From the NCBI RefSeq assembly GCF_014084045.1, contig NZ_CP043732.1, forward strand, positions 434,001 through 498,000: a DNA stretch of 64,000 bases. Reading direction: 5' to 3'. The DNA comes from Microbacterium esteraromaticum (GTDB taxonomy: Bacteria; Actinomycetota; Actinomycetes; Actinomycetales; Microbacteriaceae). The notes beneath the pieces are model-generated. The model did no database searches, was not told where the DNA came from, and worked only from the letters and a program-made list of their open reading frames with translations. Positions 23,379 through 29,531 of the stretch are shown here, one piece after another. Within the stretch, counting starts at the first letter, position 1. Every line of letters begins with the position of its first letter. The translations under genes and the position numbers were made by a program.

Positions 23379-24926
23379 TCAGACCTCCCGGTCGGCCGAG
23401 ATCGGCACCGCGATCGACTCGGTCAGCGCCTGCTCGTAGCGGTGCTGGCGGCGACGCAGCCAGAGTCCGCCTGCCACGAGCAGTGCCAGCACGATGTAGG
23501 CCGTCGCGGCGAACGGCTGCAGCACGAGCGTCGACAGGTCTCCCTGACTCAGCTGCAGCGCCTTGCGGAGCTGCTCCTCTCCCATCGGCCCCAGGATCAT
23601 GCCGACGACGAGCGGTGCCACCGGGTACCCGAAGCGCCGCATGAAGTAGCCCAGCACGCCGATGATCACGAGGATCAGGATGTCGACCACGGCGAAGTTG
23701 AGCGCGTAGGCGCCGAAGGCGGCGAACAGCAGGATGCCTGCGTACAGATAGGGCCTCGGGATCTGCAGCAGCTTCACCCACATGCCCACGAGCGGCAGGT
23801 TGAGCACGATGAGGATGACGTTGCCCAGGTAGAGACTGGCGACCAGCGCCCACACGAGCGCCGGCTGGTTCTGGAACAGCTGCGGCCCCGGCTGGAGGCC
23901 GTATGCCTGGAACGCGACGAGGATGATGGCCGCGGTCGCCGTCGTCGGGAGGCCGAGCGTCAGCAGCGGCACGAGAACGCCGGCCGCAGCCGCGTTGTTC
24001 GCCGACTCGGGGCCTGCGACCCCCTCGATGGCGCCGCGGCCGAACTCCTGCTTGTGCCTGGACAGCTTGCGCTCGGTCGCGTACGAGAGGAAGGTCGCGA
24101 CATCGGCGCCTCCCGCGGGGATCGTGCCGATCGGGAAGCCGATCGCCGTGCCGCGCAGCCATGGCTTCCACGAGCGCTTCCAGTCGTCCCTGGTCATCCA
24201 GCTGCGCCATCCACGGGTGACTGGGATCACATCGATCCCGCCGTGCCGCAGGCGTGCGGCGATGTACAGGGTCTCGCCCACCGCGAACAGTCCGACCGCG
24301 ACGAGCACGATGTCGATGCCGTCCGACAGCGGAAGCAGCCCCAGCGTGTAGCGCTGCTGCGCGGTGAGGGTGTCGGTGCCGACGAGGCCGAGGAACAGGC
24401 CGACGCCGAGAGACGTCATTCCTCGCGGCACCGAGCTGCCGATCAGGGCGCCGACGGTGACGAACGCGATGACGATGAGCGCGACGTAGTCGGCCGGGCC
24501 GAGGTTCACCGCGAACTCCGCCAGCACGGGCGCAAGCAGCGTGAGGCCGACCGTCGCGATGGTGCCGGCGACGAACGAGCCGATCGCCGCTGTCGCGAGT
24601 GCTGCGGCTCCTCGGCCGAGCTTGGCCATCTTGTTGCCCTCGATGGCTGTCACGATGGACGCCGATTCACCCGGCGTGTTCAGCAGGATGCTCGTCGTCG
24701 ATCCGCCGTACATGCCGCCGTAGTAGATGCCGGCGAAGGTGATCAGCGCCGCCGTCGGATCGAGCGTGTACGTCAGCGGCAGCAGCAGCGCCACCGTCAT
24801 CGCCGGGCCGATCCCCGGCAGCACCCCGACCGCGGTGCCGATCAGCACGCCGACGAACGCGAAGACCAGGTACTGGGGCTGCAGCGCTGTCGCGAAGCCC
24901 TCGAGCAGAAGAGTCCAGCTGTCCAT
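23379..24926 (-). CDS. tctA: Tripartite tricarboxylate transporter, large membrane subunit TctA
   Basis: The 515-residue product has about 12 transmembrane segments. The TctA signatures [40 protein letters not shown] and [15 protein letters not shown] are visible. It is the channel component of a binding-protein-dependent citrate/carboxylate importer. Its ATG overlaps the tctB stop by one base (TGATG). Confidence 0.93.
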
Positions 24927-25470
24927 CAGAAGATCCCTCCCAGCCATCCGAGCGCGGGGCCCCACGGCAGCGACAGCCCCATGAGCCCGCCGAACACGAT
25001 CTGCACGGCCAGCGCGACGGCCAGGCCGATGACGAAGGCGAGCCACCAGCGCTTCGCGCCCAGCGACCACGCGACCACTCCGAACAGCAGAGCCGCTGCC
25101 GGGGCCCAGCCGATGACATCGACGAGCAGCAGGTGCGCGACGACCGCTCCCACGATCTTGGCGAGGGTGAGCCAGTCGGTCCTGGCGTCGGGGTCGATGT
25201 CCTCCCCCTCCTCCAGTGCTGCGCGGTTTCCGCGCAGCACCGAGACGAGCACGGCCGCGGCCGAGCCGAGCAGGACGATCGAGACGAAGATCGGGAAGAT
25301 CGTCGGCCCGACCTTGACGCCCACCGGGACGTGGATCGTGAAGGCGCCCACGAGCGCGAACACGCCGAGTGCGAGCATGAGCAGGGCGAAGACGAGCTCA
25401 CCGAGGGGAACCCGCTGGGCGAGCCGAGTCTCCTCGGCCCGCCCGCTCGCCCGAGGATCGGGGCATTCAT
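24926..25470 (-). CDS. tctB: TctB small membrane subunit, apparent N-terminal frameshift
   Basis: The uninterrupted frame from ATG 25378 gives 150 residues with four transmembrane segments, but starts inside the first helix. Upstream in the same frame the codons read as a natural hydrophilic N-terminus ([18 protein letters not shown]), without a start codon. The ATG at 25470, directly after the tctC stop, is one base out of frame. Adding one base to the four-G run at 25460-25463 (plus strand) would join them into a normal 181-residue TctB. A sequencing error or a recent mutation are both possible. Confidence 0.75.
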
Positions 25471-25471
25471 G

Positions 25472-26488
25472 TCAGATCAGTCCGATGTTCTTCAGGGTTC
25501 CGGTCACGTCGGAGATGTTCTCCTCGAGGAACGCGTCGAACTCGTCTCCGACGAGGAACGCGTCGGCCCAGCCCTTGCTCTCGAGCTCCGCCGTCCAGCC
25601 GTCCGAGTCGTGCATCTCGGTGACGATGCGCTCGAGCTCGTCGCGATCGGCACCGGAGATGCCGCCGGGGGCGACCACGCCGCGCCAGTTGGTCAGCACG
25701 ACGTCGTAACCGGCGTCGGTGATCGTCGGCACATCGGCGAGGGATTCGACCGGCTCCTCCGAGGAGACGGCCAAGGCGCGCATCGAGCCGTCCTCGATGT
25801 ACTGCAGGAACTCTCCCACGCCCGAGATACCTGCGGAGACCTTGTCGCCGACCAGCAGCGAGACCGCCTCGCCGCCACCCGAGTTGGGCGTGTAGTTCAG
25901 CTTCGACGGGATGTCAGCTCCCTCGACGCCGGCAGCCTCGAGCAGCAGGCCGGCGAGGATGTGGTCGGCGCCACCCGCCGAGCCGCCGGTGACGGTGACC
26001 TCCTGCCCCTTGTCGACGATGTCCTCGACCAGGTCCTCCAGCGTGTCGTACTCCGAGTCCTCCGGCACGACGACGACGAGCGGCTCCTCGGTGAGGCGCG
26101 CGATAGGAGTGGTGTCCTCGAGCCGCACAGCGGATGAGTTGGTCTCGATCGCGCCGACCATCACCAGGCCCATGACCATGAGCGTCGCCGGGTCCTTCTG
26201 ATTGGCGAGCTGCGCGAGACCGACCGTGCCGCCGGCGCCGTCGACGTTGGTGACGGCTGCCGAGCCGAGGATGTCGTCGTCGGTGAGAACCTTCGACATC
26301 GCGCGGCCGGTCTGGTCCCATCCACCGCCGGGTCCGGCGGGGACGATGACGGAGACGTCGGTGAAGACCGAGGCCTCGCCCTCTCCGTCGGAAGCCGGCG
26401 AGGGCGTCGCGTTCTGCGACGAGCATCCGGCGAGTGCGAGTGCCACCGTCGCCGCGACGGCGACGAGGGCGGTGCGTGATTTCTTCAT
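25472..26488 (-). CDS. tctC: TctC-type substrate-binding lipoprotein
   Basis: The 338-residue extracytoplasmic binding protein of the Bug/TctC family starts with a lipoprotein signal (lipobox LALAGC). Typical segments are [16 protein letters not shown] and [17 protein letters not shown]. It delivers a carboxylate to TctAB. It is the first gene of tctCBA, preceded by a good AAGGAGGAG ribosome binding site and divergent from the fused sensor regulator. Confidence 0.92.
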
Positions 26489-26563
26489 GCGCTCCTCCTT
26501 GAGCGGTGTGGGGATGCTGGCAACCGTAGGCACTGCCGGTGCGGCGGATCTGCTTCCGATATC

Positions 26564-26591
26564 ATTGGTCGCGCTTTCGAAAGTATTGGTC
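26564..26591. promoter_or_regulatory. Direct-repeat operator in the tct/regulator intergenic region
   Basis: ATTGGTC occurs at 26564-26570 and again at 26585-26591, exactly 21 bp (two helical turns) apart and in the same orientation, with the 10-bp palindrome CTTTCGAAAG at 26574-26583 between them. It lies between tctC and the divergent regulator, the expected place for the regulator to act. Binding is inferred. Confidence 0.5.
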
Positions 26592-26647
26592 TCGGATGCC
26601 TCGCATCCGGCGTTCCCTCCGCTCGCGCACGCGGGGAGAATGGCTGT

Positions 26648-27916
26648 GTGGCCTCGAAGATGACGCACGCGTCGCAGACGACGCACGGCGGGATGCCGCT
26701 GCGTGTGCAGCTGATCTTGCTGCAGGCGCTGATCGTCGCCGTCGTGACCCTCATCGCCGGCGCCACCGCCGGGGTGATCCAGGCGGTCACGGTGCGCGAC
26801 GCCTACGAGGACCGGATGCTGGCGGTGGCGCAGTCGATCGCCTCGATGCCCGCCATCCGCTCAGCGTTCCACGACCCCGACCCCGCGGCGACGATCCAGC
26901 CGCTCGCCGAGACCGTACGCAAGGCGTCGGACCTCACGTACATCGTGGTGGCGAACGCCGACGGCATCCGCTACTCGCATCCGAACCCCGAGCGCATCGG
27001 CCAGAGGGTCTCGACCGACGCCTCCGTCCCGCTCTCCGGCGAGATCTACATGGGGACGCAGACCGGCACGCTCGGTCCGTCCTGGCGGGTCAAGGTGCCC
27101 GTCTTCGAGGGCTCCGAGGTGATCGGCACCGTGTCGGTCGGCATCCTCGAGTCCCAGGGCACCGGCGAGTTCGCGACGAACCTCGGCTGGATCATCGGCG
27201 CGATGCTGATCGCGGTCGTGCTGGGCGTGTTCGGATCGGCGTGGGTGACGGCTGTCATCCGACGTCGCATCCATCTGCTCGAGCCGCACGAGATCACGGC
27301 GCTGGTGCGCAATCAGGAGACCACTCTGCACGGCCTCAGCGAGGGTGTGATCACGGTCGACGCGTCGGGCACCATCACGCTCGCGAACGATGCGGCTGCA
27401 CGGCTGCTGGGGGCTGACGCCGCCGACCTGACCGGCGCGAGAGTGGCCGATGTGCTCGACGACGAGCTGCTCGCCGTGCTGCGCGACGGCGAGGACGCCG
27501 GTCGTCCTGTGATCGTCGGCAGCCATGTGCTCGTCGCGCGAGGCACCGGTGCACGCGTCGACGGGGAGGCGGTGGATGCCACTCTGCTGCTGCGCGATCA
27601 CACCGAGCTGCACGACGTGGTGCGCCGGGTCGAAGCGGCCGACGCCATCATCGCGTTCCGCCGCCGTGCAGGCCTGCCCAAGGGGCTCAGCGCCGAGACG
27701 CTCGGCCGCGTCGCCGTCGCACTGGGCGAGAACCCCGAGTCGTCGGCCGCCGAGCTCGGCGACGTGCTCGGGATGTCGAGGGTGAGCGCGCGGCGCTATC
27801 TCGAGCACCTCGCGAGCACGGGGCGAGCGGTGCGCTCACTCGACTACTCCACCAAGGGACGGCCGGGTACCCGCTACCGAACTATTGAGACCGTGTCTCA
27901 GGGCATGCGAGACTGA
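26648..27916 (+). CDS. CitA-like membrane sensor fused to CitB-like DNA-binding domain, no kinase
   Basis: The 422-residue protein has TM1 (18-46), an extracytoplasmic CitA/DcuS-type sensor (47-178, with [13 protein letters not shown] at 106-118), TM2 (179-203), a cytoplasmic PAS domain (about 224-322), then directly [12 protein letters not shown] (344-355) and [17 protein letters not shown] (377-393). The last two are the helix-turn-helix hallmarks of CitB/DpiA-type response regulators. No DHp histidine, no HATPase motif and no receiver are present. It should therefore be a one-component, membrane-bound citrate/carboxylate-responsive transcription factor acting on the divergent tctCBA. Start GTG 26648; ATG 26660 is an alternative. 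Confidence 0.85.
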
Positions 27917-27953: not shown

Positions 27954-29531
27954 ATGCTTCGCAGCCCTCTGCCCGACGTCGAGATCCCTGCCGTCTCGAT
28001 CTACGAGTACCTGTTCTCCGACCTCGACGATGCGGCCCTCGACTCGGTCGCGATCGTCGACGGCATGACAGGCGCCGAGACCACCTACCGTCAGCTCGTA
28101 GGCCAGATCGGACTGTTCGCCGGTGCCCTCGCAGCACGCGGGATCGGCATCGGCGATCGGGTGGGCGTGCTCTGCCCGAATGTGCCGGCGTTCGCGACGG
28201 TGTTCCACGGCATCCTTCGCGCCGGAGCCACCGCCACGACCATCAACTCCCTCTACACCGCCGAAGAGATCGCCAGTCAGCTCGAGGACGCCGACGCCTC
28301 GTGGCTGGTGACCGTCTCTCCCCTGCTCGCCGGCGCCAAGGCCGCCGCCGCGCAGCGCGGCATCGCCGACGACCACGTCATCGTGCTCGACGGCGCCGAC
28401 GGGCACCCGAGCCTGCGCGACCTGCTCTCCGAGGGGCACGAGGCGCCCGACGTGAGCGTCGACCCGGCCACCCACCTCGCCGTGCTTCCGTACTCCTCCG
28501 GCACGACAGGTCGCCCCAAGGGCGTGATGCTCACGCACCGCAACCTCATCGCCAACGTCGCGCAGTGCACCGGCCTGCTCAGCGTCGACTCCGACGACCG
28601 CGTGCTCGCCGTGCTGCCGTTCTTCCACATCTACGGCATGACCGTGCTGCTCAACTTCGCGCTGCGCAAGCGCGCATCGCTGGTCACCATGCCGAAGTTC
28701 GACCTGCTCGAATTCCTGCGCATCATCGCCGAGCACCGCACGACCTGGGTGTTCATCGCCCCGCCGATCGCCGTGGCGCTGGCGAAGCATCCGATCATCG
28801 ACCAGTACGACCTGTCTGCAGTGCGCGTCATCTTCTCAGGTGCTGCTCCCCTGGACGGCGAGCTCGCCGCCGCCGTCGCGCAGCGCCTGGGCTGCGAGGT
28901 CGTTCAGGGCTACGGGATGACCGAGACGAGCCCTGCGGTCAACCTCATCCCCGCCGAGTGGACGCACGTCGACAAGTCGTCGATCGGCCCGCTCGTTCCC
29001 AGCACCGAGGCCCGCCTCGTCGACCCCCAGACCGGTCAGGACGTCGAGCTGTCGCAGAGCGGCGAGAGCGCGCCAGGCGAGCTCTGGGTGCGGGGTCCGC
29101 AGGTGATGGTCGGGTACCTCAACCGCCCGGATGCCACGGCCGAGATGCTCGACGATGACGGCTGGCTGCACACCGGCGACATCGCCACGGTCACACCCGA
29201 CGGCATCTTCCGCATCGTCGACCGCCTGAAGGAGCTCATCAAGTACAAGGGCTACCAGGTCGCGCCGGCCGTGCTCGAGGCGGTGCTGCTCGGGCATCCG
29301 GGAATCGCCGACGCCGCCGTGATCGGCGCGAAGGACGAGGACGGACAGGAGGTGCCCAAGGCGTTCGTGGTGGTGCAGCAGGGAGTCGAGCTCAGCGCCG
29401 ACGACGTGATGTCCTTCGTCGCCGAGCGCGTCGCACCGCACGAGAAGGTGCGGCAGGTGGAGTTCATCGAGGGCATCCCGAAGTCGGCGTCGGGCAAGAT
29501 CCTGCGCAAGGATCTGCGGGCGGCCTCATAG
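27954..29531 (+). CDS. AMP-forming CoA ligase (4-coumarate/medium-chain acyl-CoA ligase-like)
   Basis: The 525-residue adenylate-forming enzyme carries the phosphate loop YSSGTTGRPKGVMLTH (near residue 180), QGYGMTETSP, the hinge GWLHTGDIA and RLKELIKYKGYQVAP, and the catalytic lysine in PKSASGKILRK. It activates a carboxylic acid to its CoA thioester. The ATG at 27954 follows GAAGGAGATC. It starts 38 bp after the fused regulator on the same strand, so the substrate may relate to what that regulator senses or TctABC imports; this is inference. Confidence 0.88.
   Translation: MLRSPLPDVEIPAVSIYEYLFSDLDDAALDSVAIVDGMTGAETTYRQLVGQIGLFAGALAARGIGIGDRVGVLCPNVPAFATVFHGILRAGATATTINSLYTAEEIASQLEDADASWLVTVSPLLAGAKAAAAQRGIADDHVIVLDGADGHPSLRDLLSEGHEAPDVSVDPATHLAVLPYSSGTTGRPKGVMLTHRNLIANVAQCTGLLSVDSDDRVLAVLPFFHIYGMTVLLNFALRKRASLVTMPKFDLLEFLRIIAEHRTTWVFIAPPIAVALAKHPIIDQYDLSAVRVIFSGAAPLDGELAAAVAQRLGCEVVQGYGMTETSPAVNLIPAEWTHVDKSSIGPLVPSTEARLVDPQTGQDVELSQSGESAPGELWVRGPQVMVGYLNRPDATAEMLDDDGWLHTGDIATVTPDGIFRIVDRLKELIKYKGYQVAPAVLEAVLLGHPGIADAAVIGAKDEDGQEVPKAFVVVQQGVELSADDVMSFVAERVAPHEKVRQVEFIEGIPKSASGKILRKDLRAAS

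Follow-up and report, generated by a model that had tools for sequence, protein, structure and literature searches.

A two-protein nutrient relay of soil bacteria that has probably collapsed into one membrane regulator beside tctCBA

Can the two ends of a CitA-CitB relay work as a single protein? The question is posed by one gene in a 64,000-nucleotide stretch of Microbacterium esteraromaticum DNA (positions 434,001 to 498,000 of contig NZ_CP043732.1; hereafter the window, in whose numbering coordinates are given). The first-pass annotation, made from the sequence alone, had read its product as a CitA/DcuS-type sensor with two transmembrane segments and a PAS domain, joined within about 20 residues to a CitB/DpiA-type DNA-binding end, with the DHp histidine, the ATPase and the receiver missing. 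The analysis below bears out this anatomy, and we argue that a two-protein nutrient relay of soil bacteria has probably collapsed into one membrane protein, which would sense a citrate-like acid outside the cell and grip the DNA itself. The gene is built as follows.

26648..27916, + strand: fused regulator gene, CitA-type sensor plus CitB-type winged helix, an open reading frame of 422 amino acids with a GTG start (profile matches; aligned with 30 full-length relatives)
26699..26788, + strand: first transmembrane helix, residues 18-47 (hydrophobic stretch; helix 18-65 in the predicted model)
26798..27163, + strand: extracytoplasmic sCache/PASp ligand domain, residues 51-172 (Pfam sCache_3_2 at 51-172, E 5e-34; alignment; 8bgb fold match)
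27164..27265, + strand: second transmembrane helix, about residues 173-206 (hydrophobic stretch; helix 168-209 in the predicted model)
27266..27586, + strand: cytoplasmic PAS domain, residues 207-313 (Pfam PAS at 225-296, E 3e-8; alignment)
27587..27676, + strand: join or linker, residues 314-343, mostly invariant (fusion-specific at 323-342; alignments; model helix 319-341)
27677..27880, + strand: CitB/DcuR-type winged-helix DNA-binding domain, residues 344-411, beginning PKGLS (sub-threshold Pfam match, NCBIfam, alignment, tree)

Profile searches returned the expected series of an sCache-like domain, a PAS domain and a CitB-type HTH with neither HisKA nor HATPase, the HTH lying below the Pfam cut-off. 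NCBIfam models matched the ends of two different proteins, DcuS/MalK over residues 16-330 (E 4e-54) and DcuR (NF007750) over residues 338-414 (E 8e-9), with scores far under the whole-protein cut-offs, as expected because the matches are partial. Since the DpiA-like HTH_64 match (residues 370-410, E 0.004) is sub-threshold, the CitB-type assignment rests on NCBIfam, the alignment and the tree described below. Against the 422-residue protein, the HisKA, HATPase and receiver profiles of Pfam and NCBIfam produced no match at E <= 10. The product consequently combines a Cit/Dcu-type extracytoplasmic sCache domain, with its conserved R/H and R/K positions, and a C-terminal CitB-type winged helix; the DHp histidine and ATPase core that define a CitA/DcuS kinase, and the receiver with acceptor aspartate that defines a CitB/DcuR regulator, are not found in it.

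The sensor, whose 13-residue CitA/DcuS-type motif occupies residues 107-119, can be aligned with the solved domains of CitA and DcuS. Among single-domain matches in the fold search, citrate-bound CitA came out best (8bgb, TM-score by target 0.86-0.91), while first rank by E-value went to a whole-chain match with a modelled WalK complex. Residues R108, H111, R147, K149 and S163, which align with ligand-binding positions of CitA/DcuS, are invariant in the 37 fusions counted (37/37), across which eight of the nine pocket positions inspected are identical.

The join itself was located against 19 pairs of intact kinases and regulators from the same clade. Clear CitA homology stops at residue 322 (RDHTELH), with traces to about 329, and clear CitB homology begins at about residue 343, identity resuming at 343-348 (LPKGLS). 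The intervening residues 323-342 are specific to the fusion and bear a poor likeness to both CitA and CitB, residues 331-333 fitting the VDA/IDA of some CitB linkers. This segment is mostly constant: among 39 fusions, 14 of its 20 positions never vary and a further 4 are conserved at 82-92%, positions 339 and 341 being variable. In the predicted model (a monomer, pTM 0.38) a single helix at 319-341 links the PAS domain with the winged helix, the pLDDT being below 50 at 321-332. Lastly, dN/dS, estimated from the 28 of 666 pairs that are 85-97% identical (L062 and L063 excluded), is lowest at the join (0.024 for residues 314-348, as against 0.052-0.096 in the other regions). The join is the most constrained region of the fused protein.

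Such a protein could perceivably be a product of assembly, a real citA-citB pair having been shortened by collapse or frameshift in the source genome alone, and it is true that relatives have intact pairs adjoining tctCBA. The distribution of the fusion speaks strongly against this. A contig scan yielded 32 loci, made up of one broken remnant (L033), one intact Agromyces kinase accompanied by its regulator (L030) and 30 further full-length fusions with 66-90% identity, 29 of them from Microbacterium and one from an 'Actinomycetales bacterium'. Among 295 Microbacterium genomes, one per species, a full-length fusion is present in 40, the source genome included, and a split or partial one in three (G184, G181 and G042), both counts being among the matches listed, which extend down to an E-value of about 3e-36, with the best 6 candidates per genome scored. 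Because the same join recurs in independently sequenced genomes, a collapsed assembly can be dismissed, and because 40 of the 295 genomes (among the matches listed) carry the full-length form, so can a one-off deletion; the intact kinase and regulator genes of relatives turn out to be the parent system, in other species. With the fusions forming one clade in addition, and dN/dS at its minimum precisely at the join, we regard an artefact as having practically no chance of being the explanation. Decay into a broken two-component system without a regulatory role deserves slightly more credit, but is still very improbable. In its favour are the three split or partial copies (among the matches listed), of which G181 and G042 (L062, L064) are without the sensor N-terminus, tctC, tctB and part of tctA. 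In G184, however, the reading frame is also broken in rpoA, in tctA and in the gene downstream, which makes sequencing error likely there, and against decay in general stand purifying selection on every region (dN/dS 0.024-0.096) and the conservation of both the pocket residues and the operator. Function rather than decay, as had been proposed at first reading, is thus the better account of this gene. In L033/L064 and L062 it is the PAS/winged-helix end that remains, tctC, tctB, part of tctA and the sensor N-terminus having gone together; transporter and sensor seem to have been lost as a unit, as one would expect of a dedicated pair rather than of general decay.

A search for homologues of the same architecture across Microbacteriaceae had been suggested; in the family sample full-length matches were confined to Microbacterium. 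No full-length fusion outside this genus appeared among samples of the family (398 genomes, E <= 1e-40), order (396, 1e-50), class (394, 1e-45) or phylum (396, 1e-50), which overlap and in which the best 4 candidates per genome were considered at strict thresholds, such that remote or second copies could escape. Independent fusions in other genera were rejected on the grounds that, in these samples and at these thresholds, searches with the fusion alignment matched full-length proteins in Microbacterium only. G091, with a match over 13-356, was likewise rejected as a second fusion, its locus (L061) having a kinase in two pieces, a receiver and an HTH in line.

Where, then, did the two halves come from? 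In 33 other genomes of the 295 (among the matches listed) it is the sensor part alone that is strongly matched, with E-values from 1e-94 to 1e-138 and the match ending at profile position 320-325; none of these genomes also carries the fusion (0/33). Sixteen of these 33 loci were fetched. With G118 and G044 (partial) the genomes with a related sensor kinase number 35, and their overlap with the 43 genomes that have a fusion or remnant is nil among the 295, for which the chance is 0.003, ignoring kinship and among the matches listed. In all 38 kinase loci compared (16 from Microbacterium, G091 and 21 from other genera, with L065-L071 left out), kinase, receiver and HTH lie in line, and 33 of the 38 are divergent from tctA. 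Among the loci left out, L065, L066 and L071 have shorter CitA-like kinases that match the sensor/transmembrane part only and adjoin tctBA-like genes; they show kinase and receiver matches and no HTH match.

Trees of the two halves, each built with 22-23 of the 39 fusion proteins picked for spread (L073 is in the HTH tree and absent from the sensor tree), agree with one another. In the sensor tree (62 rows) 22 fusions form one clade (SH-aLRT 100) inside a larger clade of CitA kinases (41 rows, support 100), their sister being the kinases L079/L080 from other genera, with a support of 94 that falls below the mark of 95. The tree of the winged helix has 64 rows, few columns and long branches; in it 23 fusions group together as one clade (99/98), nested among the CitB partners of these kinases (97/95). 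Since sensor and winged helix both nest in the matching CitA and CitB clades, the two halves most likely derive from one citA-citB pair in a single fusion event.

The first-pass annotation had also named tctCBA, divergent from the fused gene, as the expected target, and the surroundings of the gene lend this proposal further substance. The relevant features are the following.

25472..26488, - strand: tctC, solute-binding protein, the expected target (locus comparison)
24926..25378, - strand: tctB (locus comparison)
23379..24926, - strand: tctA (locus comparison; start codon by eye)
26558..26591, + strand: candidate operator, direct half-sites GATATCATTGGTC (26558-26570) and GAAAGTATTGGTC (26579-26591), 21 bp apart (motif search)
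26523..26528, - strand: possible tctC -10 element, TACGGT (by eye; putative)
26636..26643, + strand: conserved GAGAATGG, 4 nt before the GTG (alignment of 38 upstream regions)

The three transporter genes lie upstream of the fused gene and run divergently from it, and all 38 fusion loci have tctC, tctB and tctA, with tctC divergent in every one (38/38); a kinase or receiver match occurs in none of the 38. On the other side, a gene at 27954-29531, presumably acyl-CoA-synthetase-like, follows the 3' end of the fusion and is present in 27 of the 38 loci. Between the fused gene and tctC lies a direct repeat with the half-site consensus GAAAC(C/T)ATTGGTCG. Two half-sites were found in 37 of 38 fusion upstreams, spaced by 21 bp in 28 and by 20 bp in 9, one half-site being left in L005. 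A matrix made from fusions only detects the half-site in the upstreams of all 19 same-clade intact pairs (14.5-26.0 bits), compared with 1 of 950 shuffles at >=14.5 bits, a best reverse-strand score of 0.1 among these 19 upstreams, and a best score of 10.3 bits in 26 other kinase loci (the L068 upstream being a contig end). The 21-bp-spaced pattern with <=3 mismatches has one match in the 3.37-Mb genome, at 26558-26591, and none in the backward control, so that tctCBA as the probable target gains a shared candidate operator that occurs nowhere else in the genome at this spacing. Both half-sites are situated upstream of the presumed tctC -10, for which inspection by eye reveals no obvious -35 hexamer. 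At the other end of the intergenic region (26636-26662), GAGAATGG, four bases and then GTGGCCTCGAAGATG are strongly conserved across fusion loci, and GAGAATGG may serve as the -10 box for a leaderless transcript that begins at the GTG. By eye, the eight intact Microbacterium pairs L045-L052 combine a full half-site with an incomplete GNAACTAA-like one that lies 19-20 bp farther upstream; in place of the incomplete one, fusions carry a full copy, a possible sign that operator and protein have co-evolved.

Could the missing phosphorelay parts be supplied by another protein of the same genome? With the fusion profile, no second match was obtained there at E <= 0.01, and the fused gene alone gave a DcuR-family match covering the DNA-binding end and a DcuS-family match covering the sensor end. 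Below the cut-off, the DcuR-family search gave six further matches, all to receiver parts, and the DcuS-family search six, comprising five to ATPase parts and one PAS-to-ATPase match. The last is a kinase outside the window (G000:C1:2467717-2468637), matching DcuS-family positions 222-525 with an E-value of 4e-7. No partner CitA or CitB was recognised in the genome. The kinase with the PAS-to-ATPase match may cross-talk to the fused protein, but the latter is without a receiver to take the phosphate.

On balance we think it quite likely that the product is a deletion-born, membrane-tethered, ligand-controlled activator of tctCBA, with the switching of its PAS dimer directly shifting the DNA-binding domains. 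A deletion in an ancestral citA-citB operon would have removed the CitA kinase core together with the CitB receiver, leaving one gene for a dimeric membrane protein. Its extracytoplasmic sCache domain would bind a citrate-like tri- or dicarboxylate, although transporter and ligand could also correspond to another carboxylate. The second transmembrane helix and the cytoplasmic PAS dimer would respond as in CitA, where citrate reportedly pulls TM2 and turns the PAS dimer from antiparallel to parallel, the PAS C-termini being 45 versus 11 angstrom apart in two crystal forms (PMC11754779, available part). The C-terminal helix of the PAS domain, running towards the winged helix, would then reposition the two DNA-binding domains, and these would occupy the pair of half-sites that separates the divergent genes, switching on tctCBA, all without phosphate transfer. 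Given that the fusion keeps the parts of CitA up to the PAS C-terminus, the pocket, the DNA-binding end and the operator, we infer that the PAS switch acts directly on the winged helices. We further entertain, as a tentative idea that we would sooner bet against than for, that a CitA-type, nanometre-scale PAS switch is wired to DNA in such a way that the ligand sets the distance between the winged helices to fit half-sites 20-21 bp apart, and that the operator co-evolved with the fusion, the partial upstream half-site turning into a complete copy after the loss of the receivers. If this is true, the fused protein would amount to a naturally occurring minimal device in which the PAS output is separated from kinase chemistry.

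Other ways of controlling tctC are conceivable. The ligand might trigger cleavage near the linker, the freed, soluble winged helix then going to the DNA; the largely unvarying sequence of the linker would be compatible with a cleavage site, and cleavage was once proposed for CadC. That proposal was, however, later rejected (PMC5936718, available part, for both statements), and the PAS C-terminal helix runs into the linker in our model (at low confidence), an arrangement that suits coupling, which leaves regulated proteolysis unlikely. Nor do we give better prospects to a repressor whose tethered dimer would keep tctC off until the acid binds. Repeats between divergent promoters are compatible with it, repression of pilA has been reported for Rsp, a fusion protein of Neisseria (PMC10269533, available part), and conservation would by itself fit an activator and a repressor alike. 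Yet CitAB of Corynebacterium glutamicum is a citrate-responsive activator of tctCBA (PMC3353115, available part), and the putative position of the half-sites relative to the tctC promoter also points away from repression. Direct activation of tctCBA by the tethered dimer is thus the reading we prefer.

If correct, this reading makes the locus a clean example from nature of the change from a two-component to a one-component system, for which the type of parent, the approximate breakpoints, the operator and the descendants are all to hand. Since only a short linker precedes the DNA-binding domain, the fusion allows one to test whether the PAS switch of CitA/DcuS carries the signal alone. It also suggests which motif a CitB-type domain may bind at tctCBA, that of CitB in Corynebacterium glutamicum being unidentified according to a 2012 review (PMC3353115, available part), and citrate-type membrane sensors free of a kinase could serve as simple biosensor parts.

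How does the fused protein compare with known systems? Like CitA-CitB and DcuS-DcuR, it has a sensor, transmembrane segments and a PAS domain of the CitA/DcuS kind and a winged helix of the DcuR/CitB kind, it has the same placement beside tctCBA, and its half-site is common to the same-clade pairs; unlike them, it is one protein, in which no DHp histidine, ATPase or receiver was found, with a specific linker of its own of about 20 residues. Having a DNA-binding domain and at least one transmembrane region in one chain, it counts as a transmembrane transcription regulator (TTR) by the definition given in the available part of PMC10269533, which reports 50,302 such membrane-bound one-component regulators in one survey and raises a two-component origin as a possibility only. 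With the ToxR-CadC group it shares sensing outside and DNA binding inside in one membrane protein. ToxR-like proteins, however, have an N-terminal winged helix, a single transmembrane segment and a C-terminal outside domain (PMC5936718, available part), whereas the order here is TM-sensor-TM-PAS-winged helix, with two transmembrane segments, an internal PAS domain and the winged helix at the C-terminus. Hybrid TTRs such as the Bacteroides hybrid kinases also place a sensor and a DNA-binding part in one chain, but keep at least one of receiver, HATPase and HisKA (PMC10269533, available part), none of which was found in the Cit/Dcu fusion.

The closest likeness is with Rsp of Neisseria gonorrhoeae, cited as a chimera of the PilS receptor and the PilR DNA-binding domain (PMC10269533, available part), in which the membrane receptor of a kinase is likewise joined to the DNA-binding end of the partner regulator. 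Whether such fusions are described elsewhere had been left open in the first-pass annotation; with Rsp a comparable one is in print, and the kind is therefore already known. Commensal Neisseria keep the intact pair behind Rsp (PMC6528607, available part), and the available accounts differ on its role, one having it repress pilA (PMC10269533) and the other seeing no apparent role in pilE transcription (PMC6528607). Rsp differs in that its sensor is of the PilS/Nps and its DNA-binding part of the RpoN-dependent PilR/Npa type, not Cit/Dcu. For a Cit/Dcu-type sensor-winged helix fusion we found no report in the open-access literature searched. Within that literature, what is new here is the Cit/Dcu version with its traceable parent and shared operator and, in comparison with Rsp, its spread over some 40 species, in which a conserved operator and an adjoining transporter accompany it.
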